From Candidatus Bathyarchaeota archaeon (GTDB taxonomy: Archaea; Thermoproteota; Bathyarchaeia; TCS64), in the NCBI GenBank assembly GCA_030739585.1, contig JASLYX010000006.1, positions 1-64,000 of the forward strand: DNA of 64,000 nt. Reading direction: 5' to 3'. Made by a program: the position numbers and the translations under genes. Shown piece by piece: positions 25,977 through 38,982 of this stretch. Below the pieces are notes generated by a model, which was not told where the DNA came from, searched no databases, and was given only the letters and a program-made list of their open reading frames with translations. Numbering within the stretch: position 1 is the first letter of the stretch; every line of letters begins with the position of its first letter.

Positions 25977-26405
25977 TTAGGGGTAGAGGCGGTTCATCTT
26001 CAGAAGCTCAACTAGAGTGGGGGACATCTCATAGTCCTGAAAGTCTGATGGTCTTACCCACCTCACATCCAAGGCGTCCTGGGATGCCTCCAACGAGCCC
26101 CCCACGGGATAAGCCAGATAGTCGACGATTACAAAGTGAAACTTGATCCTGTTCCCGTCTCCTTCGACGATCTTGTCGACGACCCCTAGAACTCCCACTA
26201 TTTCCACCTCTAGCCCCGTCTCCTCAAAAGCTTCCCTCATAGCTGCCTCCTTAGCCCTTTCCCCTAGCTCCACAACTCCCCCCAGAATGGACTAGAGGCC
26301 CGTATCAGGCTCAGCCGCCCTCTTGATCAGCAGATACCGATCGTCATCCTGGATCAGGACTCCGCCCACCAAGGGTTTCTCTGGATAGAGCCGCCTCCCA
26401 CTCAT
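25977..26405 (-). pseudogene. Nudix hydrolase interrupted by one in-frame TAG
   Basis: From ATG 26405 the frame gives a standard about 142-residue Nudix protein if codon 38 (TAG at 26292-26294) is read through. Before it, YPEKPLVGGVLIQDDDRYLL is the usual first strands; after it, GGVVELGERAKEAAMREAFE plus ETGL is an intact Nudix box. Homologues have Trp at the interrupted place (GLW-S-PGG), so TGG to TAG is the simplest change. The remaining frame is clean. Either a recent nonsense mutation, a sequencing/assembly error, or amber readthrough. Confidence 0.75.
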
Positions 26406-26493
26406 GTCTAGGATCCTGCCACTCCACCGATTTAATATGCCCCGACGCAGAGAGTTTATAACTCTTTGATCTCTAGGACCCTGAGGGTTTGAT

Positions 26494-27177
26494 ATGAGAG
26501 TCATCGTCTTCACTCAGGGCTCCTATGGGGAGTGTATTCTTGAGAATCTGAGGCTCCGGGCGCCGAAGGAGTGGACGATCGAGGAATCGGTTATGCCCGG
26601 GGGGCTGTCGATATTGATCGAGGAACCCGAAGAGATCGTTGATGACCTAGATCTAAACGGGAAATGGGACCTCGTCCTGTTCATGGGGGAGAGCCCGTCA
26701 GCCTTCACCCTTCTCCCCAGCATTCTAGAAAAGCTCGAGACTGGGACTGTAATCGCACCAGTGGCCGACTACGAATGGCTCCCTCAAGGCTTGGAACGCC
26801 AGATCGGGAGCGAGATCGAGGGTTTAGGCGTGGAAATTGTTTTTCCCCGAACTTTTTGCTCTCTCGCACCTGTGGGAGTGCCCAAAATCGACGCATTCGC
26901 GGAGTTGTTCGGCTTTCCTAAGCTAGAGATAGCTGTGGTTGACGGGGAGGTGAGTTGCGTTGACGTCCTGAGGGGTGCACCATGCGGTTCCACTCATTAC
27001 ATGGCTGAGAAGCTCCCGGGCACGAAGGTCAGTGATGCAATGCCCCGGGCTGGCACCCTTGTCCAGATCTATCCCTGCCTCGCTTCTAGAAAGGTGGACC
27101 GCTTCTTCGGGGATTCACCGATCCACGTGGCAGGGAATATTGCTGTGAAGGCCCTAGAGAAAGCCCTCAGGAAATAG
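26494..27177 (+). CDS. DUF166 family protein
   Basis: A 227-residue archaeal protein of the family often labelled thymidylate synthase-related. N-terminal VIVFTQGSYGECILENL and the mid-protein VVDGEVSCVDVLRGAPCGST with its CGST-type Cys motif identify it; WDLVLFMGESPS is another conserved piece. It was historically proposed as an alternative thymidylate synthase, but the activity is not established as far as I know. TATA-like GTTTATAAC lies about 30 nt before ATG 26494; transcribed divergently from the Nudix gene. Confidence 0.78.
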   Translation: MRVIVFTQGSYGECILENLRLRAPKEWTIEESVMPGGLSILIEEPEEIVDDLDLNGKWDLVLFMGESPSAFTLLPSILEKLETGTVIAPVADYEWLPQGLERQIGSEIEGLGVEIVFPRTFCSLAPVGVPKIDAFAELFGFPKLEIAVVDGEVSCVDVLRGAPCGSTHYMAEKLPGTKVSDAMPRAGTLVQIYPCLASRKVDRFFGDSPIHVAGNIAVKALEKALRK

Positions 27178-27180
27178 GGC

Positions 27181-28719
27181 TTAGTCATCTATCGTTATCT
27201 GGGGATGGGGTATCTCTCCTTGGGATGCAAGCTCCATGTGGACGAACCTACTCATAGGGGTCGTCGTTGACGATGCCGGATAAACCTCTGGGAGGACCTT
27301 AACCCATATTGGAAAACGGCATTTAAGAGCGGTTCCCTTCACGATAGCCTCTCCCTGGGGGAGGTCCCCTATGAGGCGACTGAACTCATCTCCTACGATC
27401 TCGGCGAGTCGCTGCCGGTCCAAGTCTTCAAGGCTATGGCAGATGATATTGTTCGCGCATTGGGTGACAACGGTCTTATCTACCGTCGCAAGGCGCTGTG
27501 TGACTATCCAGAGGCCCACACCGTTCCTGCCACCGTTGGTGGCGATTTCCTTTACAATTCCGAGGAGTTTGCCTCTGACGTCTTTATCTCCTAGATCGAA
27601 GACTCCTCTTTGAGGGGCATAGTACATTGCTTCCTCAAGAATTACGACGCACCCGAACTTGCGGTTTTCTAAGGCTTCACTGAAGATCCTCCGGAGAACT
27701 TGGGCGACAACAAGATGCTTCTGGGACCATGAGTCCTTGCCGCTAGAGATGTCCATAATTACAATGCGGCGATCCTTGAGGAGCTCCACTGGGTCAAGAG
27801 GCATCAAGTCCCCGTCTGGTATAAGCTTGGAGCCCGCAATGGCGTTTAGTACTTGCTGTTGGTACTGCTTGAATTCGTCCGCCTTCTTGTTGAACCCAAG
27901 AGATTCCGCTCCCACGAACTCCACCGCCCTGCCTATATTATGCTTAGTAATAGGAGATGCCTGGGCATAGAGAATCTTCAACCCTTTTACAAGAATCTTA
28001 GCGTTCCACCATGTCTTCTGCCACCCGAACTCAGAGAGGTAGTCCTCCCAGGGAATATTTGAGGGCTGGAAGAAGCGCATCCATGGGACCTTGAGCACTT
28101 TGTCGATGCCAATACGTTTTATAAGGCTCGAGTATTCTCCATCCTTGTCCACCACGAAAAACCGAACAGGGGGATTTAGGTTAGCGGCCCTGGCGACCAT
28201 GGAAATCGCGGTCGTTGTTTTCCCTGTCCCAACAGCACCGCAAATGAGTGCGCTCTGTCGGATAAGCGGATAGACTCCTAACTCAACATCAAGATCAGTG
28301 CTTGGATCAGTGCCTAGAAGTAGTTTCCAATCGCCATTGGGCTTAGTGAATCTAGCCACGACTTCTCTCTCCGCGATGCGCACTAGTGTGTTCGGACTTA
28401 TGTGGTGCCTGAGTGGTCTAAGGCTCCCAGCCTCGTCAAGCCATCCCCACTGGTAGGCCCGGGCGTGGATCGTTGTGCTCTCTGGGTCACTCAAAATCCT
28501 CCCCTCTTGAAGGAGGACTTCCTCATACTCCCGTACTCTCCTATGGGGGTAGACTCCTGTTATTTGATAAACCACTGGAGAGCCATTCTTAGGATGCTTG
28601 AAGTAGACAAGGTCCCCCTTTGCGAGTTCCTTACCCCTGACGAGAACCACAGTGATCTCGTCAACCCGGTACTCCCCTGTTTTACTGTACGTGTATCCGA
28701 CGATCATGTGCCCATCCAC
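27181..28719 (-). CDS. herA: HerA-like bipolar DNA translocase/ATPase
   Basis: FtsK/HerA-superfamily hexameric ATPase of 512 residues that pairs with NurA in archaeal end resection. An N-terminal HAS-barrel-like beta domain spans about 1-150; Walker A is GAVGTGKTTT (161-170), Walker B is CVVILEEAMYYAP near 375, and the following NGGRNGVGLWIVTQRL holds the arginine-finger region. The start overlaps nurA by 16 nt, so nurA-herA form an operon. Unlike the classic archaeal locus, mre11 and rad50 are absent here. Confidence 0.9.
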   Translation of the reverse strand: MDGHMIVGYTYSKTGEYRVDEITVVLVRGKELAKGDLVYFKHPKNGSPVVYQITGVYPHRRVREYEEVLLQEGRILSDPESTTIHARAYQWGWLDEAGSLRPLRHHISPNTLVRIAEREVVARFTKPNGDWKLLLGTDPSTDLDVELGVYPLIRQSALICGAVGTGKTTTAISMVARAANLNPPVRFFVVDKDGEYSSLIKRIGIDKVLKVPWMRFFQPSNIPWEDYLSEFGWQKTWWNAKILVKGLKILYAQASPITKHNIGRAVEFVGAESLGFNKKADEFKQYQQQVLNAIAGSKLIPDGDLMPLDPVELLKDRRIVIMDISSGKDSWSQKHLVVAQVLRRIFSEALENRKFGCVVILEEAMYYAPQRGVFDLGDKDVRGKLLGIVKEIATNGGRNGVGLWIVTQRLATVDKTVVTQCANNIICHSLEDLDRQRLAEIVGDEFSRLIGDLPQGEAIVKGTALKCRFPIWVKVLPEVYPASSTTTPMSRFVHMELASQGEIPHPQITIDD

Positions 28720-29768
28720 TGTCCTTCACCCCAATATGGGGCCAGATGGCTCAACTCTGCTGTGGTTCTCCCGACCCTGCCCACGATGTCTTTATACACC
28801 TCCCTGATAAACCGCCTCGAGACCTTTACTTCCTCATCTGCCCGTATTATGGGCAATGGGATGCCCTTCCAGACGCTGGAGAAATAGCAATAGTCAGCAA
28901 TATCATTCAGATCTCCTAGACAGAATGCAGGGAGATCAATCCTTACCGGGGGGATTGCCCACTCTTTGGAGAGACGTATGTAAAATGAGTAAACCGGGTG
29001 GCCAATAGCGTCCATAAAAGGTGTCCTCTGTACCGACTTCATTGCCGCGGATCTTGGGGAGAAGATGTCGGTTCTCTCCCCAGACCTCAAGCAGTGGAGA
29101 AGGAGGAACGCGTCTGGGAACTCCGTTAGCCTCTGGAGTCCCAAATTATAGATGAGATACCGAGCCGAGGGGCGTTTGATGACGCCAGCTACGGATACTC
29201 CTTTCTCTCGACAAATGTTGAGGAACCCACTGACCGCATTTACGAGACGGCTTCTATCCGCCTCGCCCCCAACCATGTTCCACCAATTGCTGAACGCTAG
29301 GGGACCATCAACTAAGATGAGACGGACATCCGGATCACCCTCAACATACTGTGTCGCGGTCTCATACAGTTTTGCTTCCCGCCGAATGTTTATGATTCCT
29401 CCCAGTTGTCCCCCCTCAATACGGTATGGAAAACAGAAGGACTCAGGTTCACGGAAGAAACGCTCTCCAGAAGGGAGAGTGTAGACAAGGGCGCTAATTA
29501 CTGCAAAGCGCCTAGAGGCGAGGGGAAGTATATGACTACCGGCGTCCACCCCCGCTACCTCGTTGAAGGGATCCCTCTTCGTTGCGGAGTGAATAGAGAT
29601 TTTCTTTCTGATCATCTTAGCTAACTCTTTAACTACGTACAAATCTTCCTCGATCTGATTTGTCACCTCATCGAGGAGAAGGTTTCTTATCAATAAATAC
29701 AGATTCGGACGCGCATTGTGGTTGAGGATGTCCATTTCAACACCCGCATTTTCCCTATCTGTTAGCAC
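28704..29768 (-). CDS. nurA: NurA-domain 5'-3' nuclease
   Basis: RNase-H-like nuclease partner of HerA, 354 residues. The two metal-binding acidic motifs are in VAGVDAGSH (Asp75) and RLILVDGPLA (Asp154), with a C-terminal conserved VRIDLPAF further on. An alternative start is the Met at residue 12. Overlaps herA by 16 nt. About 200 bp upstream, and divergent from it, starts a row of small winged-helix genes. Confidence 0.88.
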   Translation of the reverse strand: MLTDRENAGVEMDILNHNARPNLYLLIRNLLLDEVTNQIEEDLYVVKELAKMIRKKISIHSATKRDPFNEVAGVDAGSHILPLASRRFAVISALVYTLPSGERFFREPESFCFPYRIEGGQLGGIINIRREAKLYETATQYVEGDPDVRLILVDGPLAFSNWWNMVGGEADRSRLVNAVSGFLNICREKGVSVAGVIKRPSARYLIYNLGLQRLTEFPDAFLLLHCLRSGERTDIFSPRSAAMKSVQRTPFMDAIGHPVYSFYIRLSKEWAIPPVRIDLPAFCLGDLNDIADYCYFSSVWKGIPLPIIRADEEVKVSRRFIREVYKDIVGRVGRTTAELSHLAPYWGEGQWMGT

Positions 29769-29968
29769 CTCTCATCAACCTCAGAATGAATATGTACAAC
29801 ACTTTTTTCCTTCATATTTAAACCCTATGATCATTACGAGCGTAATTTCCGATAAATGGCGTTTTATATATAAAGTAAGAAATTAACACGCTCAGAAAAC
29901 ACCCTCGTCTTACCGGACTCGGTCGTCACCCCAAAAGTAAAGTTAATAAGAAGAATAGGAAAAATAGG

Positions 29969-30223
29969 ATGTACACCATGAAACAAGATTATTCTCTCAA
30001 AGAACAGGTCTTCAGGACATTCCTCGCAGATCCGAGCCTGGGCCCCAGCGAGATGACCGAGAAACTGGGGGCGAAATACAACTCCGTGAAAGCGGCATAC
30101 GCGAAGCTCTGCGACGAAGGGAAGCTGAAGAGGGAGGGGCGGGGAAGCTACACTCCGGATTTAGCGGGGATCATTCTCGGCCTTATGGACCGTGTCGAGG
30201 CCCTTGAGAAACGAGAGAGATAG
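29969..30223 (+). CDS. Small winged-helix protein 1 (84 aa)
   Basis: First of five consecutive plus-strand winged-helix genes. Helix-turn-helix sequence PSEMTEKLGAKYNSVKAAYA (recognition helix about 37-50), a wing with EGRGSYTP, then a short C-terminal helix GLMDRVEALEKRER that could be a coiled-coil contact. A TATA-like AGTTAATAA lies about 25-30 nt before ATG 29969, the likely promoter for the series. Ends TAG, 9 nt before the next start. Confidence 0.72.
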   Translation: MYTMKQDYSLKEQVFRTFLADPSLGPSEMTEKLGAKYNSVKAAYAKLCDEGKLKREGRGSYTPDLAGIILGLMDRVEALEKRER

Positions 30224-30232
30224 GGGATTGCA

Positions 30233-30502
30233 TTGTCGAAGATATGGGAAAAAGCGTTGAAGGAGCTCAGCCCGAAAAGCAGCCAGTTCAAGGTTCTGGT
30301 CTACCTCGCGTTCGAGGGGGCTGCGAGCCCGACCCAGATAGCCCAGGAGACGGGGATCTCCCCCGGGACTGTGAGACCCGCGCTGAGAGCCCTGCTATCG
30401 AAAAAGTATGTCACCCAGGAGAGGGATAGATCCTACAAGTCTAAGGTTCCATTCACTGAGATAGTCTCCGATCTATTCACGAACGCGATACGCCGAGATT
30501 AA
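30233..30502 (+). CDS. Small winged-helix protein 2 (89 aa)
   Basis: Starts at TTG 30233. Typical MarR/ArsR-like helix arrangement: FKVLVYLAFEGAASPTQIAQ, recognition helix SPGTVRPALRALLSKKYV, then a charged wing QERDRSYKSK. It resembles protein 4 most (both have LAFEG/LTFQG followed by P-T-Q-I-A or P-S-Q-I-A). Probably a DNA-binding regulator; target unknown. Confidence 0.72.
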   Translation: MSKIWEKALKELSPKSSQFKVLVYLAFEGAASPTQIAQETGISPGTVRPALRALLSKKYVTQERDRSYKSKVPFTEIVSDLFTNAIRRD

Positions 30503-30520
30503 ACCACTGCGGGATTTGAA

Positions 30521-30775
30521 ATGGGTTCCAAAGAGCTCGATGGGCTGAGGAGGGCTGAGAGCCAGCGTCAGGTCCTCATCTACCTGATCGAGAAGGGGGA
30601 ACCTTTATCGTCTCAGGAGGTCGCCGACGCTCTGGGGATTACGGTGAACGCCGTGAACATTGCGCTCTTCAACCTGAACAACAAGGGGCTCGTGGAAAGG
30701 GTCTCCCGGGGAGTCTACAGGTACAAGCTGGGGCCCATCATAGTGAAGCTACTGGAGAGATATCTGGACAGGTGA
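30521..30775 (+). CDS. Small winged-helix protein 3 (84 aa)
   Basis: ATG 30521. Shares its N-terminus (KELDGLRRAESQRQVLIYL) with protein 4 (REELDGLKLDTAAFQVLSYL), showing recent common descent. HTH: SSQEVADALGITVNAVNIAL, wing RGVYRYKLG, and a C-terminal helix PIIVKLLERYLDR. Four nt separate it from the next gene. Confidence 0.72.
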   Translation: MGSKELDGLRRAESQRQVLIYLIEKGEPLSSQEVADALGITVNAVNIALFNLNNKGLVERVSRGVYRYKLGPIIVKLLERYLDR

Positions 30776-30779
30776 AACT

Positions 30780-31046
30780 GTGAGCCGGGAAGAGTTGGAC
30801 GGGCTGAAGCTAGACACTGCGGCGTTTCAAGTGCTTAGCTACCTTACTTTCCAAGGTACGCCTCTCAAACCCTCCCAGATTGCTAAGGGCGCCAAGCTGA
30901 AACCGTCGACAGTTAGGGCAAGACTCTCGGAGATGAAAGATAAAGGGTTGGTAACCCAGGGCTCTGCAGGCTACCTTTCAGCGGTAAACCCCTACGACAT
31001 ACTCATGAAGTTGTACAGAGTTATAAAGAACGAATCGGGTGTTTGA
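30780..31046 (+). CDS. Small winged-helix protein 4 (88 aa)
   Basis: GTG 30780, 4 nt after the preceding stop. N-terminal EELDGLKLDTAAFQVLSYLT, HTH KPSQIAKGAKLKPSTVRARL, recognition helix then SEMKDKGLVTQGSAGYLSAV. The last codons overlap the start of gene 5, so the series is one transcript. Confidence 0.72.
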   Translation: MSREELDGLKLDTAAFQVLSYLTFQGTPLKPSQIAKGAKLKPSTVRARLSEMKDKGLVTQGSAGYLSAVNPYDILMKLYRVIKNESGV

Positions 31047-31368
31047 TCTCATGTCCGAAGAGAAACTGGAAAAGCTTAACCTGAAGATGGAGGCCGTTAT
31101 CGGGCTCGGCAAGGCCCCCAGCCAGAACATTATTTTCTTCCATCTCTTGGGAACAGGGAAGACCATGACAGTCAGAGAAATCTCAGGAGAGGTGAACCTA
31201 ACAGTCAAGGCGACCGAGAGGGCAGTCGCGAAACTCTTGGATAAAGATCTAATACAGCGGGCGCCGTTTAGGGTTCGGTCCTACTTCTGTGATAGCAAGG
31301 AGGTACTCAAGGGAATCCTGATGATGGTTCAGAACCTAAAAGAGAGGCTCGATAAAAGAGGGCTCTGA
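31039..31368 (+). CDS. Small winged-helix protein 5 (109 aa)
   Basis: Start overlaps gene 4 by 8 nt (ATG-like starts at 31039 and 31051). A longer N-terminal helix EKLEKLNLKMEAVIGLGKAP precedes the HTH MTVREISGEVNLTVKATERA; a C-terminal helix LKGILMMVQNLKERLDKRGL could dimerise. It converges with the next gene, 1 bp apart. Confidence 0.72.
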   Translation: MFDLMSEEKLEKLNLKMEAVIGLGKAPSQNIIFFHLLGTGKTMTVREISGEVNLTVKATERAVAKLLDKDLIQRAPFRVRSYFCDSKEVLKGILMMVQNLKERLDKRGL

Positions 31369-31369
31369 A

Positions 31370-31837
31370 CTATTTCTTCTTCAGGGGAGGCAGGACCTTT
31401 TCCTCGATCCACTTTACACCTTCTGTAGATAGTTTGTAGTAGGGAGCCCGATCCACCGGCTTGAAGATGTGGCCTCGTTTCCTCATCTCATGGAGCCTAG
31501 CGGGGACTGTGACCTGCTTTCCACTCGCCGCCAGCCTCTTGGTGATCTCCCTGGAACTAGATTGGTGTTCTTGTAGGGCGTAGAGGATGAGGCCAATTGA
31601 CGCATAGTGAGATAGTTTCGCCTTAGTGACAATGATCGGGCCTTTAAGCCTGATATCAATTATCCCCTTGAGGTCGTCCTTCGCCTGAGTCACTAAAATC
31701 TCTGAGATCCTGTTATTTACCTCCATTATAAAGTCTTGATTTAGCTTCGAGAGGGCATCCAATACCTCCTCAGTTGTGTCTCCGCTGACGTTTATCTCCC
31801 CAAATGGGGTCTTGATGGAGATTGAGATGCCGGTCAT
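31370..31837 (-). CDS. Two-domain winged-helix protein 6 (155 aa)
   Basis: N-terminal domain of about 60 residues begins with paired strands ISIKTPFGEINVSGDTTEEV followed by a helix; the C-terminal half is a winged helix (SSREITKRLAASGKQVTVPA, then ARLHEMRKRGHIF, wing APYYKLSTEG). The N-terminal strand-helix unit is shared with protein 7. Start overlaps the stop of gene 7 (ATG in ...GTAATGACC), so they are coupled. Confidence 0.7.
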   Translation of the reverse strand: MTGISISIKTPFGEINVSGDTTEEVLDALSKLNQDFIMEVNNRISEILVTQAKDDLKGIIDIRLKGPIIVTKAKLSHYASIGLILYALQEHQSSSREITKRLAASGKQVTVPARLHEMRKRGHIFKPVDRAPYYKLSTEGVKWIEEKVLPPLKKK

Positions 31838-32253
31838 TACATCCTCTCGGTTTCTTTTATGACATATAGATAGCCCTTCTTATCATCCTTCCATCGCCTG
31901 ATTCTGCCTTTCTTAACTAGCCAAATTAGGACTGGGGAGAGGGTGCCTTTAGGGAAGAAGATCGCGTTAGCCTCCATCGCTTTCTTGAGCTCAGAGATGG
32001 TTCGGGGATTTTTACCCCAATCTGTAGTGAGAAGAGCTACTACGGCGGCACCGCACTTATCAGTCCAGCTGATTTTAGGATAATCCAGTAGCTTCCGCGG
32101 GAGGTCGGGGCGATCAACCTCAAAGGCGGTGGTTACCTTCTGGACGATACTAGAGAGGTCATCGAGTGTGGACATGACTTCCTCCTTGTTCCCGCCTAGC
32201 TCTATTTCCATGTCCCCTATCCTAACCTTGAGATGAAATGGTGGACGCTCCAT
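31837..32253 (-). CDS. Two-domain winged-helix-like protein 7 (138 aa)
   Basis: N-terminal LKVRIGDMEIELGGNKEEVM matches the strand-helix unit of protein 6; the C-terminal part has PRTISELKKAMEANAIFFPK and GTLSPVLIWLVKKGRIRRWK, a winged-helix recognition region, ending with a wing KGYLYVIKE. First gene of a minus-strand pair with protein 6. Function unknown; DNA binding is inferred from fold. Confidence 0.68.
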   Translation of the reverse strand: MERPPFHLKVRIGDMEIELGGNKEEVMSTLDDLSSIVQKVTTAFEVDRPDLPRKLLDYPKISWTDKCGAAVVALLTTDWGKNPRTISELKKAMEANAIFFPKGTLSPVLIWLVKKGRIRRWKDDKKGYLYVIKETERM

Positions 32254-32846
32254 AGGAACACATCTGAATGGTATAAACGATAATATTTTCGGTTTAGATT
32301 ATAATACTATAACGGCGCGGGCGCTATTACCTGTTCAAAGTTCTATATCCCGTTTTTCAAGTGTATCCCGGTGAAAAAGCTCAACTTACGTGGTTTTCTA
32401 AATTTCTCTTCAGAGGGATAAGGCTACATGGATGATAATGACTAATTTCAGGGACTTCATAGGATATGCCGCGATCTCTCTCTATTTGTGTTGGCTTTCA
32501 TGATTGCATTCATGAAGATTCTGACATCATATCTGGGGGATTTCTCCAGAGTTCTCTATAGTTTTGAGGGGGGGCTTCTCTTAGGGATGTTACTCCTGAT
32601 AGGTAATGTATCTGCGTTGATATTACACTTTGAACCTTTAGAAACCTTACTTTACCCTCTAAGGTGGATTTGTTTAAAGCTTTGCAGAGTTTGGAAAGCG
32701 GGAGTAGAAATAAGGATACTTTCTCGGGGTTCTATGATGTATCAAGCCATGATTGATAACCCGGGGACAGCCTTAATTTCGTCGTATCCGTGCGCGCTGT
32801 AAATGGCAAATATCCGTTAAATACCGTGGAAAATATTCTTACCTAA
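32254..32846. other. Intergenic stretch with a doubtful membrane-protein frame
   Basis: From 32488 (TTG) to 32802 a frame reads a hydrophobic start (LAFMIAFMKILTSYLG) and a second hydrophobic run (GLLLGMLLLIGNVSALIL), but no good start is present and an ATG-led frame just upstream is shifted. It may be a decayed small membrane gene. TATA-like GTTAAATACC at about 32816-32825 serves the next gene. Confidence 0.3.
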
Positions 32847-34016
32847 ATGGCTGGAAAGGTTCTCAAGATAGGCATCGGAATCCTTGGGGGGGAGATCCTC
32901 CATACTCTGGCTAGGGCCGGCGTGGACGAGATCATTGTAGCTTGCCGCGACGAGGCGAAAGGTAAACAGAAAGCTGCCCAGGTCGCGATGGGGGCAGCTG
33001 CTCAGGGCCTCTATCCGAATATCTCGTACAGAAAGATCGATCTGAACAACGTTGAAGAGACAACTCGAATTTTAAGCGAGGTGGAACCAGATATGGTCTT
33101 CAACTCAGCCGACCTTTATCCTTTCTGGAGGTTCCATACGGATCTGCCCCGGGACGTTGCTAAGAGGCTTGGGGAAGGTGGACCTGTGGGTTATAGCTTG
33201 GCGCTTCCCTTCAGATTGCTATTGCTTTACAGACTCATGAAGGCGGTCAAGGCCTCGGGTACCGACGCCCACGTTTTATTTACCAATGATCCCTGTGAGA
33301 TTATCAGCCCTATGTTAGCTGGAGCTGGGTTGGCGCCAACCACTGGTATAGGTGATTTCGCCCACATAATTGAGCCTATGCGGAGGGTCGTTAGCGCCAA
33401 GACCGGGGTTCATATCAAAGATGTTGAGGTCTATTTGGTAGCTGATTTCGCTACTTATCATCTCCTTAGGCGGAAAATTGCTCCCCCAAAATCCATGTAC
33501 TTCCTGAAGGTGATTGCAGGGGGTAGCATCGTGACGGACCGTTGGGATCCTATAGAGATACTATCAGCAGCTGTGGAAGAGTCAAGATCAAAAGGGAGGA
33601 AAAGCCCAATCGCAGACCAGCATTACACAGCCTCTATCGCCGTTGGGGATATGATGGCCATCCTTGGAGATACCGGGGAGATCCGTCACTGCCCGGGGCC
33701 AGCAGGGCTACAGGGGGGATTCCCTGTTAGGCTGAACGCGAACGGTGCTGAGGTCGTACTCCCCGAAGAGATTACTCTGGATGAGGCCATTGGAATGAAT
33801 GCAGAGGCCCAGAAGCTGGAGGGAATAGAGAGAGTGACCGGGGATGGGACAGTGGTCTTCACTGATGAGGCCGTAAGGATTATGGATGAGGAGATGGAGT
33901 TAAACCTCAAATCATTCAACGTGACTGAATGCGAAAAGGTGGTTGAATACTTTTGGCATGCTTACAGAGCTCTGGTGCGGAGATATAAGGACAAGCCCAA
34001 GTCCCTTGAGTTCTAG
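32847..34016 (+). CDS. Rossmann-fold NAD(P)-binding protein, MDH/LDH-like layout
   Basis: A 389-residue protein. The dinucleotide site is IGIGILGGEILHTLARAG (about 7-24), followed by ACRDEAKGK as the specificity loop; the later LFTNDPCEIISPMLAGAGL recalls the T-N-P segment of malate/lactate dehydrogenases. Residues of the normal active-site His-Asp pair are not obvious, so the reaction is unknown. Saccharopine-dehydrogenase-like annotation is an alternative. Start ATG 32847 lies about 22 nt after a TATA-like box; stop is 2 bp from a convergent aminotransferase gene. Confidence 0.6.
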   Translation: MAGKVLKIGIGILGGEILHTLARAGVDEIIVACRDEAKGKQKAAQVAMGAAAQGLYPNISYRKIDLNNVEETTRILSEVEPDMVFNSADLYPFWRFHTDLPRDVAKRLGEGGPVGYSLALPFRLLLLYRLMKAVKASGTDAHVLFTNDPCEIISPMLAGAGLAPTTGIGDFAHIIEPMRRVVSAKTGVHIKDVEVYLVADFATYHLLRRKIAPPKSMYFLKVIAGGSIVTDRWDPIEILSAAVEESRSKGRKSPIADQHYTASIAVGDMMAILGDTGEIRHCPGPAGLQGGFPVRLNANGAEVVLPEEITLDEAIGMNAEAQKLEGIERVTGDGTVVFTDEAVRIMDEEMELNLKSFNVTECEKVVEYFWHAYRALVRRYKDKPKSLEF

Positions 34017-34018
34017 AC

Positions 34019-35191
34019 CTATTCCTTAGAGGCAATGGCCTTTCTTACTCCCTCGGTAAAAGCATCGATCTCCTCTACCGAGTTGTAAAAATGGGGAGCA
34101 ACCCTAATCGTGGAGTGGAAAATCGGCGAGCACTTAGCCCAGTCAGGCCTAGACCCACAGGGAAAAATCCCCTTTGACTTTAACGCATCAACAACTCTCT
34201 GCGGATGATGAACTTGGAAATTCAGTATGCCTGATCGGAACGAGGCTTCTTCCGGCGTTGTAACTTTGAGCCCCATTTCCCTAAGAGAGTCTCCGAGGCG
34301 CCCCGTGAGCATCAGAACCCTCTTCTCGATAAAGTTTTTCCCCGCGTCCAGCAGGAGCTTCATTGCTTCTGTAGCTGCGACGAGGCTGATATACGCTGGC
34401 GCACCTACCTCGAATCTTCTTGCATCATCCGGAAACCTCAGGGTCAGTTGATTCCGATCCTTCACTCCAGAAGTCGATCTCCAACCTGTTAGCGGGGGAT
34501 CACAGTCATCGATCAGTTCTTTTCGAACGTAAAGATACCCTGATCCTGGTGGGCTGAGGAGCCACTTGTAACAGCCAGCAGCCAAAAAGTCAATCCCCGC
34601 TCTTCGCACGTCTATCTCCATAACACCTGCAGACTGTATTCCATCTACTATGAGATACGCTCCATGTTCGTGGGCTATCTCTGCGAGGGCCCTGAGATCG
34701 TGCCTGAACCCGTTGAGCCAGTGGACGTGGCTTACCACCACTGCTACAGTCTCGTCATCGACTGCCTCATCGATGTCGCTGAGGAGTACCCTCCCTTCGG
34801 CATTCTCCACGAACCTAACTTTGACGCCAGGTTCTCTGCGGAGGAATGGATAGATAACCGATGAGTACTCATAGTCGGTTGTGACGATATTAGATCCTTT
34901 GTAAGGATCGACGACTCCGGCCGCTATGTTTAGCCCTACAGAGGTATTCTCAACGAAGGCGACCTCTTCTTTTTCGGCCATAACCAGTTCAGCGAAGAGA
35001 GCTCTACCCCCATCCTCGGGAACTCCGGCATCCACTAGAGTTAGCCCAGAATGCATCGCAGAGTATAGATATTTCTGGATCGCCTCAGCTCCACATTTCG
35101 GTATTGGTCCCCGTGAGGCATGGGCAAGGTAAACCTTCTTTTCTGTAATGGGGAACTGTTCCCGGATCTTCCTGAGATCGATCATAGTCAC
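34019..35191 (-). CDS. Class V aminotransferase (cysteine-desulfurase/isopenicillin-epimerase-like)
   Basis: PLP enzyme of 390 residues. The PLP lysine is in LAAGCYKWLLSPPGSGYLYV near 216, the aspartate contacting the pyridine in LIVDGIQSAG, and the early VENTSVGLNIAAG phosphate-contact region is present. A loop with the catalytic Cys of IscS-type desulfurases is not evident, so group is better read as aminotransferase/kynureninase-like. TATA-like sequence is seen before ATG 35191. Confidence 0.85.
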   Translation of the reverse strand: MTMIDLRKIREQFPITEKKVYLAHASRGPIPKCGAEAIQKYLYSAMHSGLTLVDAGVPEDGGRALFAELVMAEKEEVAFVENTSVGLNIAAGVVDPYKGSNIVTTDYEYSSVIYPFLRREPGVKVRFVENAEGRVLLSDIDEAVDDETVAVVVSHVHWLNGFRHDLRALAEIAHEHGAYLIVDGIQSAGVMEIDVRRAGIDFLAAGCYKWLLSPPGSGYLYVRKELIDDCDPPLTGWRSTSGVKDRNQLTLRFPDDARRFEVGAPAYISLVAATEAMKLLLDAGKNFIEKRVLMLTGRLGDSLREMGLKVTTPEEASFRSGILNFQVHHPQRVVDALKSKGIFPCGSRPDWAKCSPIFHSTIRVAPHFYNSVEEIDAFTEGVRKAIASKE

Positions 35192-35755: not shown

Positions 35756-37651
35756 TCATTTAATCCTTGCTTGGATGGCTTCCCGTAGGATGGTCTGAAC
35801 GTCTTCTGCTCGGGCCCTCCCCCTGATCTCTACCATCATCATCCCCATCAGGGGCCCGATCGCCTTCATCCCTCTCTGTTCCACCAGTCCCTCATTCTCT
35901 GAAACCTTCGCCATAACCCGCTCCCGTAGAGCTTCCATACCTATCATACCAAGACTGAGGGCTTTAAGGGCCTCCTTAACCGTCCTATCTGGATTTAAGG
36001 CCAGCCAAGCTATGAGCTCGGGGATTGACTCCTTGGCTGTCCCCCTCTTATTGACAAGAGTGAAGATGCCCATAATCGTATGCTCTCTGAGGCTCTTAAT
36101 TGGAATCCCGTCTCGCTGCAGGCTCCTCAGAGTTTCTGTGAGGGTAACGGCGATGAGCGTAGGATCGCCAAGACCTTTCCCCGCTAGTGCCTCAAAGAAT
36201 TCTGAGTAGATCGAGTTCATCACTTGTTTCGCTAGCTTCTCATTTATACCGTAATCGGCCTTTAGCCTCGCCAACTTATCCTCTGGCATCTCTGGAAGCC
36301 TAGCCTCTAGGGTTTCCAGCTTTTCTGATGTAATTGGGATGCAGACAATATCGGTCTCGGGATACATCCTCGCTGCTCCGGGGCGGGGTCTTGTAAAATA
36401 GCTAGTTCCGTCGGGGTTCGCTGAGCGAGTCTCTCGGGGAATCCCATAGAGTGTCTGTTTAGCTCTATCGAGAACAGCCTCGAGTGCCTTATGTGCCTTT
36501 TTCTCCTCATCAGCGACTATAACGACTGCGTCCGATGACTTAGCCATCATTCGGTCCCTCAGAGATTGGACCTCCCCCTCTGATATGTTATAGCCGGGAA
36601 GCTCATCAGTGTGGAATATCCCTCTTACCCCAGCATGGAAACGAGCGTGGTCCGCCATCTCCGTTCCTAGTCTCCTGCCAGGGCAGAGCTCGTGGCCCAC
36701 TATCTCGGCGAAACCGTGGAGCTTGACGGCTAGGACCTTTCCCCCTTTTTTTAAGACAGTCTTTAGGATATGACTTTTAGACCCTTTGAAGAGACTTGTG
36801 ACATCAACAATGTTGTTCTTTAGGTCCCCCTTCTTGACGCCTCGAACAGCCAATGCGTCGGTCAGCCTAAGAAGGGCCACCTGTCTTTGGACCTCAAACT
36901 CTACAACCTTGGAAATGAGGCTCAGTTCCTGGACTCCTTTGATCTCTATAATGGCACCATCTGCTATGGAGATGTTAACATCCTGTCGGATGGAGCCTAA
37001 TCCTCTCCTCACCTTCCCTGTGGCCCTTAGTATCTGTCCGATCGCGAGGGCTACCCTCTCCGCCTCCTCTGGGGAGTAGATATCTGGATCCGTAGCAACC
37101 TCTATAAGAGGTATCCCGAGTCTGTCGATCCTGTAGTGGCTTACCTTTCCATCGTCGGCAACCTTCCTAGCGGCATCCTCCTCGAGGCCCACATGTTGGA
37201 TGCTATACGTCTTACCATCGGACTCTACGGAGCCGCCCGCGCTGATAATACAGGTCCTCTGGAAACCAGTAGTGTTGGAGCCATCCACCACGATCTTCCG
37301 CATAACGTGCACCTCGTCTACGGGCTTGGAACCAGACATGAGGGCGAATGTGAGGCAAATGTCCAAGGCCTCAAGGTTCAAAGGTCCTGGGGGTTCCTCG
37401 TCCATTTCAACAAAGCAGCTGGTGGCACGGTCTGCCTCGTAGAGCATTGTCTTCCCCTTAATGAACTCAAAGAGGGCGGCGGGGTCAACCTTCCCCAACT
37501 CGCTCTGGCTCGGCCTAAGCCTGCGGAGAAATGTGTACTCAGGCTTTTCCTTAAAGAGCGTGGGGGGACACTTGCAAAAGAGCTTATGCTCTGTAGCCAG
37601 TTCCTGGTGGATCTCGAGGCCTACTTTAAGCCCCAGCTTACCATAATCCAT
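35756..37651 (-). CDS. gatE: Glutamyl-tRNA(Gln) amidotransferase subunit E
   Basis: Archaea-specific subunit that phosphorylates and amidates Glu-tRNA(Gln) together with GatD. 631 residues, normal length. GatB-like cradle with KVGLEIHQEL at 10-19, ATSCFVEMDEEPPGP, GIPLIEVATDPD, then the insertion domain of the AspRS type and a C-terminal YqeY-like tail. Its start overlaps the gatD stop by one base, so gatD-gatE are coupled. Presence implies that this organism makes Gln-tRNA indirectly. Confidence 0.97.
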   Translation of the reverse strand: MDYGKLGLKVGLEIHQELATEHKLFCKCPPTLFKEKPEYTFLRRLRPSQSELGKVDPAALFEFIKGKTMLYEADRATSCFVEMDEEPPGPLNLEALDICLTFALMSGSKPVDEVHVMRKIVVDGSNTTGFQRTCIISAGGSVESDGKTYSIQHVGLEEDAARKVADDGKVSHYRIDRLGIPLIEVATDPDIYSPEEAERVALAIGQILRATGKVRRGLGSIRQDVNISIADGAIIEIKGVQELSLISKVVEFEVQRQVALLRLTDALAVRGVKKGDLKNNIVDVTSLFKGSKSHILKTVLKKGGKVLAVKLHGFAEIVGHELCPGRRLGTEMADHARFHAGVRGIFHTDELPGYNISEGEVQSLRDRMMAKSSDAVVIVADEEKKAHKALEAVLDRAKQTLYGIPRETRSANPDGTSYFTRPRPGAARMYPETDIVCIPITSEKLETLEARLPEMPEDKLARLKADYGINEKLAKQVMNSIYSEFFEALAGKGLGDPTLIAVTLTETLRSLQRDGIPIKSLREHTIMGIFTLVNKRGTAKESIPELIAWLALNPDRTVKEALKALSLGMIGMEALRERVMAKVSENEGLVEQRGMKAIGPLMGMMMVEIRGRARAEDVQTILREAIQARIK

Positions 37652-38982
37652 CAGCCGAACCTCCCCGTGTAAAGTGTCCTATCCGAATACTCTCCTGCGA
37701 TATTCTTCTGCATCAGCACTTTAGCCGATTCTAGGTCTTCTGAGTTAGCAAGGGCCCACATCAGCTTCACGTAGGCCGTTTCCGGAAGCATGTCCCCGAG
37801 AGGTTCGACCCCTAGCCGTTGGAGCATCCGACCCGTGGTGTAGACGTTCATATTAAGTCTCCCCCAGATGCATTGGGAGGTCATCCCAACGTAGAGCCCC
37901 GCCTTGATAGCCCTATCTATGACCTCGAATAGCCTTGTACTAACATGGCCAAGGCCAGTCCCCTCTAGGATCAGCCCCTTGTAACCTTCATCAACATACC
38001 ACTCCACAAGATTTGGCTGTAGGCCTGGGTAGAATTTCACAAGACCCGTCTTTTCTTCGAAACCGTTCATGATCTTAAGCGTGCCGTCGTTTCTTCTCCG
38101 ATAATCGTTCTCAAACATCTCCACCTTTCCCTCAGCCACTTTAGCGAGGGGTCTGACGTTTACAGACTGGAACGCATACCTTGCACTGGTGTGTAGCTTT
38201 CTTACCTTGGTACCCCTATGGAACACAACGCCGGTGTCTGATGTAGTCTCGTGCATTCCTAGGACAACCTCGGCAAAGGGTGCATTTACAGCAGCGGTGA
38301 CGACCCCCACGAGATTTGTGGCAGCGTCGCTGCTGGGTCGATCTGAACTCCTCTGGGAGCCCACAAGGATGACGGGGATTGGCAGGTTCCTCAGGGAAAA
38401 GCTGAGGGCCGCAGCAGAGTATCCGAGAGTGTCGGTTCCGTGGGTTATGACGATGCCTGCCACGCCAGCGTTGACCTTCTCCGATACCATCGTTGCCATA
38501 CCAGTCCAGTGGCGAGAATTGATGTCCTCACTAAAGACGCTATAGAGGATGTCTGCTTCGACGGCAGCGAAATCGGAGAGCTCTGGGACTATGCTGAGGA
38601 GGTCCCTAGATGAGATAGCAGCATGGACTCCCCCCGTGGTATAGTCAACTCTGCTTGCTATGGTGCCTCCGGTGCTAACAATACTCACCCGAGGGAGCCC
38701 CTTCTTTATGCTTGGGAGGGGTGGAGGGCTGAACTCGGGCTTATCTGCTTCACCTATCCGCTTGACCCGCGTTAAAGCATTGAAGGTGACCCCTAAATTA
38801 TATCCGTTTCTAAGTTTAAGGACGATGTGATGTTCATCATCGCTCTCAAGGCGGGGCATCAGGGAGCCTTCGTATATAGTATTCTGGGACTCTACCTTGA
38901 CAAAGTCCCCAATTCCAGCTCCGATGGCTTTGAGGGCCACCTTGAGTCTCCCCCGGTAGCCTTGTAGAGAGTCCTCATCCAT
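37651..38982 (-). CDS. gatD: Glutamyl-tRNA(Gln) amidotransferase subunit D
   Basis: L-asparaginase-like subunit releasing ammonia from glutamine (or asparagine) for GatE. 443 residues. A GatD-specific N-terminal domain, then the asparaginase Thr motifs STGGTIASRV near 96 and ITHGTDTLGYSAA near 177, and catalytic Lys region VGSQRSSDRPSSDAATNL. Preceded by a TATA-like AAATATAAG on the minus strand about 40 nt before the ATG. Confidence 0.96.
   Translation of the reverse strand: MDEDSLQGYRGRLKVALKAIGAGIGDFVKVESQNTIYEGSLMPRLESDDEHHIVLKLRNGYNLGVTFNALTRVKRIGEADKPEFSPPPLPSIKKGLPRVSIVSTGGTIASRVDYTTGGVHAAISSRDLLSIVPELSDFAAVEADILYSVFSEDINSRHWTGMATMVSEKVNAGVAGIVITHGTDTLGYSAAALSFSLRNLPIPVILVGSQRSSDRPSSDAATNLVGVVTAAVNAPFAEVVLGMHETTSDTGVVFHRGTKVRKLHTSARYAFQSVNVRPLAKVAEGKVEMFENDYRRRNDGTLKIMNGFEEKTGLVKFYPGLQPNLVEWYVDEGYKGLILEGTGLGHVSTRLFEVIDRAIKAGLYVGMTSQCIWGRLNMNVYTTGRMLQRLGVEPLGDMLPETAYVKLMWALANSEDLESAKVLMQKNIAGEYSDRTLYTGRFG

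Follow-up and report, generated by a model that had tools for sequence, protein, structure and literature searches.

A Bathyarchaeota genome carries, within the 64,000-nucleotide stretch analyzed here (the window), a nine-gene locus in which herA2 and nurA2 encode a second HerA–NurA pair, divergent in sequence, conserved among relatives, and separate from the Mre11–Rad50-linked pair, next to seven small winged-helix genes, W1 to W7. Extra NurA–HerA pairs show conserved linkage with W6/W7-family proteins in several classes belonging to a single archaeal phylum, and five more small winged-helix genes (W1–W5) have been added in the taxonomic order to which the window belongs. We consider it about an even chance that the locus encodes a second HerA–NurA motor–nuclease for chromosome maintenance with its own winged-helix DNA-binding partners. 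No published description was found.

Layout of the locus and the HerA2–NurA2 pair

The locus and its conserved neighbors are arranged as follows.

27181–28719, reverse strand: HerA2, second HerA-type DNA-translocating ATPase (Pfam DUF87, E 1.7e-9)
28704–29768, reverse strand: NurA2, NurA-type nuclease (Pfam NurA, E 2.7e-13), overlapping herA2 by 16 nt
29769–29968, no strand: divergent promoter region, of conserved length in the alignment of relatives
29969–30223, forward strand: W1, 84-aa winged-helix protein with a C-terminal helix (profile match to W3; orthologs)
30233–30502, forward strand: W2, 89-aa winged-helix protein (MarR_2, E 4.7e-7)
30521–30775, forward strand: W3, 84-aa winged-helix protein (HTH_24, E 1.9e-6)
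30780–31046, forward strand: W4, 88-aa winged-helix protein (MarR_2, E 1.7e-6)
31039–31368, forward strand: W5, 109-aa winged-helix protein (HTH_24, E 9e-4)
31370–31837, reverse strand: W6, 155-aa two-domain protein, N-terminal β-hairpin/helix plus winged helix (AlphaFold2)
31837–32253, reverse strand: W7, 138-aa two-domain protein, W6 homolog (hhalign, AlphaFold2)
35756–38982, reverse strand: gatE and gatD, conserved neighbors outside the machine (synteny with W7/W6)

The herA2–nurA2 and W1–W5 operons diverge across about 200 bp; the successive gaps in W1–W5 are 9, 18, 4, and −8 nt (W4 and W5 overlap by 8 nt), the convergent genes W5 and W6 are separated by 1 nt, and W7 shares 1 nt with W6. 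The sequence-only reading had described a herA–nurA operon without mre11 or rad50, followed about 200 bp away by five co-directional winged-helix genes. Its coordinates and strands are correct, neither mre11 nor rad50 lies beside the pair among the ORFs listed around the locus, and the five genes are identified as winged helices by Pfam (W2–W5) and by the W3 profile (W1).

HerA2 matches the Pfam DUF87/HerA central ATPase domain at 38.6 bits (cut-off 23.2), and NurA2 matches the NurA domain at 50.4 bits (cut-off 21), with residues D75, E131, and D154 invariant in 18 sequences. A PDB sequence search with NurA2 returned no NurA among its results, and a NurA tree was set aside, its long branches being poorly placed. 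HerA2 scores well below the cut-offs of the HerA repair equivalogs NF040937 (45.7 bits versus 800) and NF040819 (32.5 versus 970) and shares ≈31% identity with the genome's other HerA over the C-terminal part. A standard nurA-herA-mre11-rad50 operon lies elsewhere in the genome, on another contig, so that herA2 is indeed a second copy and, as had been proposed, its locus is not the standard repair locus. Across 30 other Bathyarchaeota loci HerA2 is 58 to 90% identical, herA2 has a dN/dS of 0.04 to 0.05, and the herA2/nurA2 overlap, 16 to 19 nt, is kept through the order.

The locus resembles the archaeal herA–nurA–mre11–rad50 operon in encoding a HerA-type ATPase and a NurA-type nuclease together, but differs in its lack of mre11 and rad50, its divergent sequence, and its winged-helix partners. 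It is also like the extra nurA–herA pairs of Pyrobaculum, vertically inherited paralogous pairs that exist beside the repair pair (PMC3396285). The Pyrobaculum nurA-csm6-herA arrangement (PMC3396285) is different: the window has winged-helix genes, no csm6 or cas gene was recognized among the ORFs listed around herA2–nurA2, and, since nurA2 and herA2 overlap, nothing lies between them.

Winged-helix genes and the shared promoter

Winged-helix Pfam models are matched by W2–W5, with no Pfam match for W1, W6, or W7; the W1 profile matches that of W3 with 96% probability. Like Lrs14-type archaeal regulators, the best NCBIfam match of both W3 and W5, these are small winged-helix proteins, but their scores against NF040939 (W3, 26.9; W5, 21.6; W2, 16.8 bits) fall below the cut-off of 90. 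W2 (support 99/98), W3 (99/91), W4 (96/83), and W5 (99/98) each form their own clade, W4 grouping with W2 and W3 with W5/W1, and W1 has an ortholog in 24 loci. W3 and W4 cross-match at 32 to 41% identity and, given their separate clades, are not the clear recent paralogs they had been called; the tree rules out recent tandem duplication of the W genes, and W1–W5 are old orthologous groups. Two further candidate rearrangements were discarded: an apparent W4–W5 fusion in one relative (L033) has a TAG between the two genes, and what looked like an additional winged-helix gene separating W4 from W5 in two others (L047 and L055) is an acetyltransferase-like gene on the opposite strand.

In the AlphaFold2 models of W6 (pLDDT 84.6) and W7 (pLDDT 80; above 90 in the winged-helix part), an N-terminal β-hairpin/helix domain precedes a winged helix that is confidently predicted at the C terminus; on these models the earlier description of two convergent two-domain winged-helix genes is correct. 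W6 and W7 align with an hhalign probability of 89.5%, and a PDB structure search with their N-terminal domain returned generic winged helices only, none with E <0.001.

The arrangement of all nine genes, strands included, is unchanged in 21 relatives that were fetched, and relatives with an incomplete block are mostly cut by contig ends. In one chromosome (G007) the block is split, probably by an assembly error, since each of the two breakpoints interrupts a reading frame that is fused to another gene, with runs of N nearby. The gatDE genes adjoin W7/W6 throughout the order and in other families. In G088, from a different family, the ends of two contigs share 25 bp; if joined, these contigs would read W5-W4-W3-W2, divergent from a winged-helix gene, then NurA2–HerA2. 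In a search of 257 class genomes, W3 gave strong matches only within the order and in G088, and it is present almost only in genomes with NurA2, which goes against the refuting case of winged-helix genes occurring elsewhere without herA–nurA. The locus is vertically inherited through the whole order. Values of dN/dS lie between 0.07 and 0.17 for every W gene (W1, 0.12; W2, 0.08–0.09), similar to the 0.10 to 0.12 of neighboring gatD/gatE, and place all seven under purifying selection. Together with the recurring gene order, they show that the arrangement is not a chance one.

The divergent promoter, aligned among 25 relatives, seven of them close, keeps a length of 192 to 219 bp. It contains a nurA-side TATA on the reverse strand (29813–29824) and a W-operon TATA (29863–29874), the latter flanked by a conserved inverted element, GAGCGTAATTTC (29838–29849) and GAAATTAACACGCTC (29879–29893). 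Given this element, a role in regulating transcription is probable for one or more of the W proteins, or for some other factor. A wider regulon was sought and rejected: the exact half-site is unique to this promoter in the genome, and matches with one mismatch are no commoner than in the control.

Association beyond the order

The association extends well past the window: 208 of the 257 class genomes have W6, as do 112 of the 120 high-quality Bathyarchaeia genomes. Genomes without HerA2–NurA2 usually carry a divergent pair, HerA3–NurA3; 155 class genomes have HerA3, 33 have NurA2, and none has both. When HerA3 and W6 share a contig they lie within 10 kb of each other in 33 of 49 genomes, and in 13 they are tens of kb to ≈1 Mb apart; some W6 carriers have no HerA3 match. 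The two strongly divergent pairs may reflect replacement of one by the other, or may be a single locus.

Outside the class, 12 loci were picked by a W6 match alone. Ten, including four from amoA genomes (ammonia oxidizers), have a NurA–HerA pair near the W6-family genes, often divergent from W7-like genes. The eleventh (G260) is a single ORF that joins a HerA-type ATPase and a W6 winged helix; this fusion was seen once, in the sole genome of its order and class here, and its HerA part has no N-terminal barrel. One genome (G433) has W6-like genes and no HerA nearby.

Candidate functions of the locus

From the association of the pair with winged-helix genes we infer the following mechanism. HerA2 would be a hexameric pump acting together with NurA2, and W6/W7 would bind DNA by the winged helix and touch the motor by the N-terminal domain or a coiled coil; by doing both, they could load, orient, or restrain HerA2 at particular sequences or ends, as FtsK γ does at KOPS, the oriented sequences whose binding by γ guides FtsK (PMC2680272). 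W1–W5 would be extra DNA-reading subunits, whose role could differ from that of W6/W7, and at least one of them might also autoregulate both operons via the inverted element of the shared promoter. DNA-end sensing, raised in the sequence-only reading, is one possible form of such an adaptor. The likeness to FtsK and γ is in working, a same-superfamily DNA pump steered by a winged helix, and is drawn here from gene association; the G260 fusion shares the order of motor then winged helix. The window's winged helices differ, however, in being separate proteins, a nuclease is attached, and HerA2 scores 14.3 bits against FtsK_SpoIIIE (cut-off 24). More tentatively, Thermoproteota, including Bathyarchaeia and ammonia oxidizers, may share a core, so far undescribed DNA-motor system. 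In it, a second HerA–NurA pump would take its direction from separate winged-helix subunits and, as a functional counterpart of FtsK and γ, would serve to segregate chromosomes, resolve dimers, or deal with broken forks; the window's order would have added five DNA-reading subunits to it.

It is unlikely, though worth serious consideration, that the W proteins are ordinary local transcription factors for themselves and the divergent nurA–herA operon, with no part in DNA processing. The inverted element around the W-operon TATA, its genome-unique half-site, the conserved promoter, and the Pfam/NCBIfam matches, which are to regulators of a generic kind (MarR and Lrs14, for example), fit this account; yet seven distinct regulators for two operons, each kept as a separate ortholog, would be unusual, W6/W7-type genes stay linked to divergent NurA–HerA pairs in other classes, and a HerA-type ATPase–W6 fusion exists. 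Local autoregulation is, moreover, compatible with an adaptor role. That the neighbors are functionally unrelated core genes held together by slow rearrangement is very improbable: gatDE, without an obvious DNA-processing link, is also kept beside W6/W7, but the independent recurrence with different NurA–HerA types and orders, the conserved divergent promoters, and the fusion argue otherwise.

Genome defense, in which HerA2–NurA2 would break down foreign DNA and the winged-helix proteins would have a sensing or licensing role, is improbable. A 2026 study found that Thermococcus kodakarensis HerA–NurA degrades both strands of double-stranded DNA, spoke against its acting directly in end resection, and suggested an antiviral role (PMC12977600); a paralogous nurA–herA pair of Pyrobaculum is CRISPR-linked (PMC3396285), and the HerA models of PADLOC recognize HerA2 (E 1e-21 for the best). 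Against this, the locus is core and syntenic beside gatDE through the whole order rather than a patchy island, a similar association recurs in other classes, no cas genes were recognized among the ORFs listed around it, PADLOC has no model matching NurA2, W6, or W7 and matches W1–W5 only as generic winged helices, no defense partner of HerA2 lies among its neighbors, and the score against the HerA-based anti-phage model NF042943 is 53.3 bits (cut-off 800). A viral or plasmid origin was likewise rejected, as profile searches found no relative of NurA2 or W6 in viral contigs or of W6 in plasmids. The long linkage of the pair with winged-helix genes suggests a chromosome-maintenance machine rather than the defense or element-control system proposed earlier, and such a housekeeping role may have an antiviral side effect, as with RecBCD. 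Most improbable is an accessory to DNA transfer, with the pair readying single strands to be imported or exported; Ted DNA-import loci and HerA genes do co-occur, and NurA–HerA has been proposed to generate the strand that is transferred (PMC9905601), but the weak NCBIfam CedD match (32.5 bits versus a cut-off of 600) covers the Walker A region only, and no import genes were recognized among the listed neighbors.

With the function of archaeal HerA–NurA again under question, a phylum-wide second pair with fixed DNA-binding partners suggests that HerA–NurA machines are specialized and adaptor-regulated, and FtsK-like steering of an archaeal motor becomes testable. Short and for the most part lacking a Pfam family, the W genes are easily missed despite the prevalence of W6 in Bathyarchaeia.

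A second HerA–NurA pair beside seven winged-helix genes

The locus comprises a HerA-type ATPase gene and a NurA-type nuclease gene, herA2 and nurA2, five small winged-helix genes (W1–W5), and two two-domain winged-helix genes (W6 and W7).

Features of the locus (window coordinates)
27181-28719, − strand: herA2, HerA supported by Pfam
28704-29768, − strand: nurA2, NurA supported by Pfam; overlaps herA2 by 16 nt
200 bp between nurA2 and W1: spacer
29969-31368, + strand: W1–W5, with gaps of 9, 18, 4, and −8 nt
31370-32253, − strand: W6 and W7, convergent with W5

Pfam supports winged helices in W2–W5 and matched no family in W1, W6, or W7; profile comparison relates W1 to W3 and W6 to W7. AlphaFold2 models of W6 and W7 each contain an N-terminal β-hairpin and helix and a confidently modeled C-terminal winged helix; Foldseek returned generic winged-helix matches alone for the models, with none significant at 0.001. 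Nearby, a Nudix-like coding region (25977-26513, − strand) is broken into two adjacent ORFs, with an intact relative in locus L035, and the interval from W7 to gatE (32488-35191) harbors extra dehydrogenase-like and aminotransferase-like genes, where many relatives have 50 to 230 bp.

The sequence-only reading, which suggested a possible role in defense, element control, or DNA-end sensing, had raised the question of a second herA copy; the genome (1.69 Mb in 28 contigs, bathyarchaeotal judging from the nearest named relatives) indeed encodes another DUF87 protein, on contig C2 within a nurA–herA–mre11–rad50 operon. The two HerAs share about 31% identity in the C-terminal part, and the window HerA falls far below the NCBIfam cutoffs for repair HerA. 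In a HerA tree, a long, fully supported branch divides the window type and related types of other Thermoproteota from the two repair-type HerAs, with long branches restricting any finer reading.

Conservation of the locus in Bathyarchaeota

A scan of the genome collection, mostly metagenome-assembled, retrieved 30 related bathyarchaeotal loci, 21 of which conserve herA2 and all eight other genes in the same order and strand; among the others, four are truncated by contig ends, three belong to lineages further removed from the window, and one probably reflects misassembly. Relatives maintain the nurA2–herA2 overlap at 16 to 19 nt and the nurA2–W1 spacer at 192 to 219 bp, and dN/dS of the W genes between the window and close relatives (0.07–0.17) is similar to that of gatD and gatE. 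NurA2 is found in 33 of 257 class genomes: the family accounts for 24 (of its 27), other members of the order for five, and genomes beyond the order for four. These and the other genome counts given here are not independent owing to common ancestry.

W1–W5 each form one clade spanning nine or ten taxa, and four of these five groups also include G088, a genome of a different family, so the array is older than the order. Strong W3 matches are found in the order and in G088, where the nurA2–herA2 and W2–W5 contigs end in an identical 25 bp; joined there, they would set W2–W5 in divergent orientation to a winged-helix gene with nurA2–herA2 next after it.

Synonymous divergence of W1–W3 (29969-30775) from loci L033 and L034 is 0.35 to 0.51, against about 1.1–1.2 for HerA, NurA, and gatE, or roughly half. 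Gene exchange or additional constraint at the DNA level may be responsible, although the error is large for such short genes. In L047 and L055, a gene on the opposite strand is inserted between W5 and W4; its product is acetyltransferase-like and has an OB-like part at the C terminus. The block in G007 (CP070640; L113 and L035) is interrupted at two points, one within nurA2 and one between W3 and W2; each breakpoint is fused to other ORFs, and the split is probably an assembly error. Small helical HEPN-like proteins beside winged-helix genes in two families (L115:4623-5024 and L056:4444-4899) apparently constitute a single protein family.

W6 and HerA–NurA within and outside the class

W6 is present in 208 of 257 class genomes and in 112 of the 120 best. 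W6 neighborhoods in genomes without NurA2 contain gatDE, W7, W6, and W6b, a W6 paralogue from whose winged helix weak profile matches hint that W1–W5 may derive. In NurA2-less genomes, proteins of 485 to 487 and 358 to 369 residues are encoded a few kilobases from W6; Pfam identifies the former as HerA (HerA3; E 1e-13 to 2e-18) and the latter as NurA (E 7e-6 to 9e-4, at or over the cutoff in two of three). HerA3 occurs in 155 of 257 class genomes, none of which is among the 33 that carry NurA2. HerA3 and W6 share a contig in 49 of the 79 genomes with both listed, lying ≤10 kb apart in 33 and >20 kb apart in 13; random placement in a 1.5-Mb genome would put a position within 10 kb in about 1 to 2% of cases by our own estimate, which takes no account of shared ancestry.

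The W6 profile was then searched against the phylum, and 12 out-of-class loci were picked on W6 alone. Ten of them have a NurA–HerA pair close to W6-family genes (three of the HerA2 type and seven of the HerA3 type), and several share the divergent layout, nurA being faced there by a W7-like gene. The genomes of four of the ten harbor amoA and are therefore those of ammonia-oxidizing archaea. The twelfth locus, in G433, has W6-like genes and no HerA nearby; in L165:5674-7786, from an amoA-bearing genome, W6-like genes adjoin a PCNA-like gene, with no HerA nearby. Finally, the eleventh locus, in G260 (L162:5773-7173, − strand), is a single intact 466-residue ORF that joins a HerA-type ATPase region (residues 3–260), through a coiled-coil-like stretch, to a W6 match (residues 333–465; E 2e-25), known from this one genome, the sole representative of its class in the collection.

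Proposed roles: adaptor or regulator

HerA is a hexameric DNA pump on which NurA is seated as the nuclease, as established in other archaea. HerA–NurA from T. kodakarensis degrades both strands and may not carry out end resection (PMC12977600); such machines would therefore need control. The G260 fusion has the same layout, motor, coiled coil, and winged helix, as FtsK and its γ domain, the part that guides FtsK at oriented DNA motifs (PMC2680272). Pyrobaculum is known to have extra nurA–herA pairs, one CRISPR-linked (PMC3396285), and a link between HerA and the loci for Ted DNA import has been described (PMC9905601). The literature covered here, including work on Thaumarchaeota, Bathyarchaeota, and gene neighborhoods, contained no description of the association of HerA–NurA pairs with winged-helix genes.

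The W proteins may act as a detached, multi-subunit adaptor for HerA2–NurA2, akin to FtsK γ; the gene association is observed, and their contact with the motor, DNA specificity, and cellular task are inferred. The main rival, that they are regulators, could be true in part. We favor the detached adaptor because these small DNA-binding proteins are constant companions of the pair and are joined to the motor in a single ORF in one lineage. Two TATA boxes lie in the nurA2–W1 spacer, and the one serving the W operon is flanked by a conserved inverted element, GAGCGTAATTTC / GAAATTAACACGCTC (29838-29893); the exact half-site of this element is unique to the spacer within the genome, consistent with local autoregulation.
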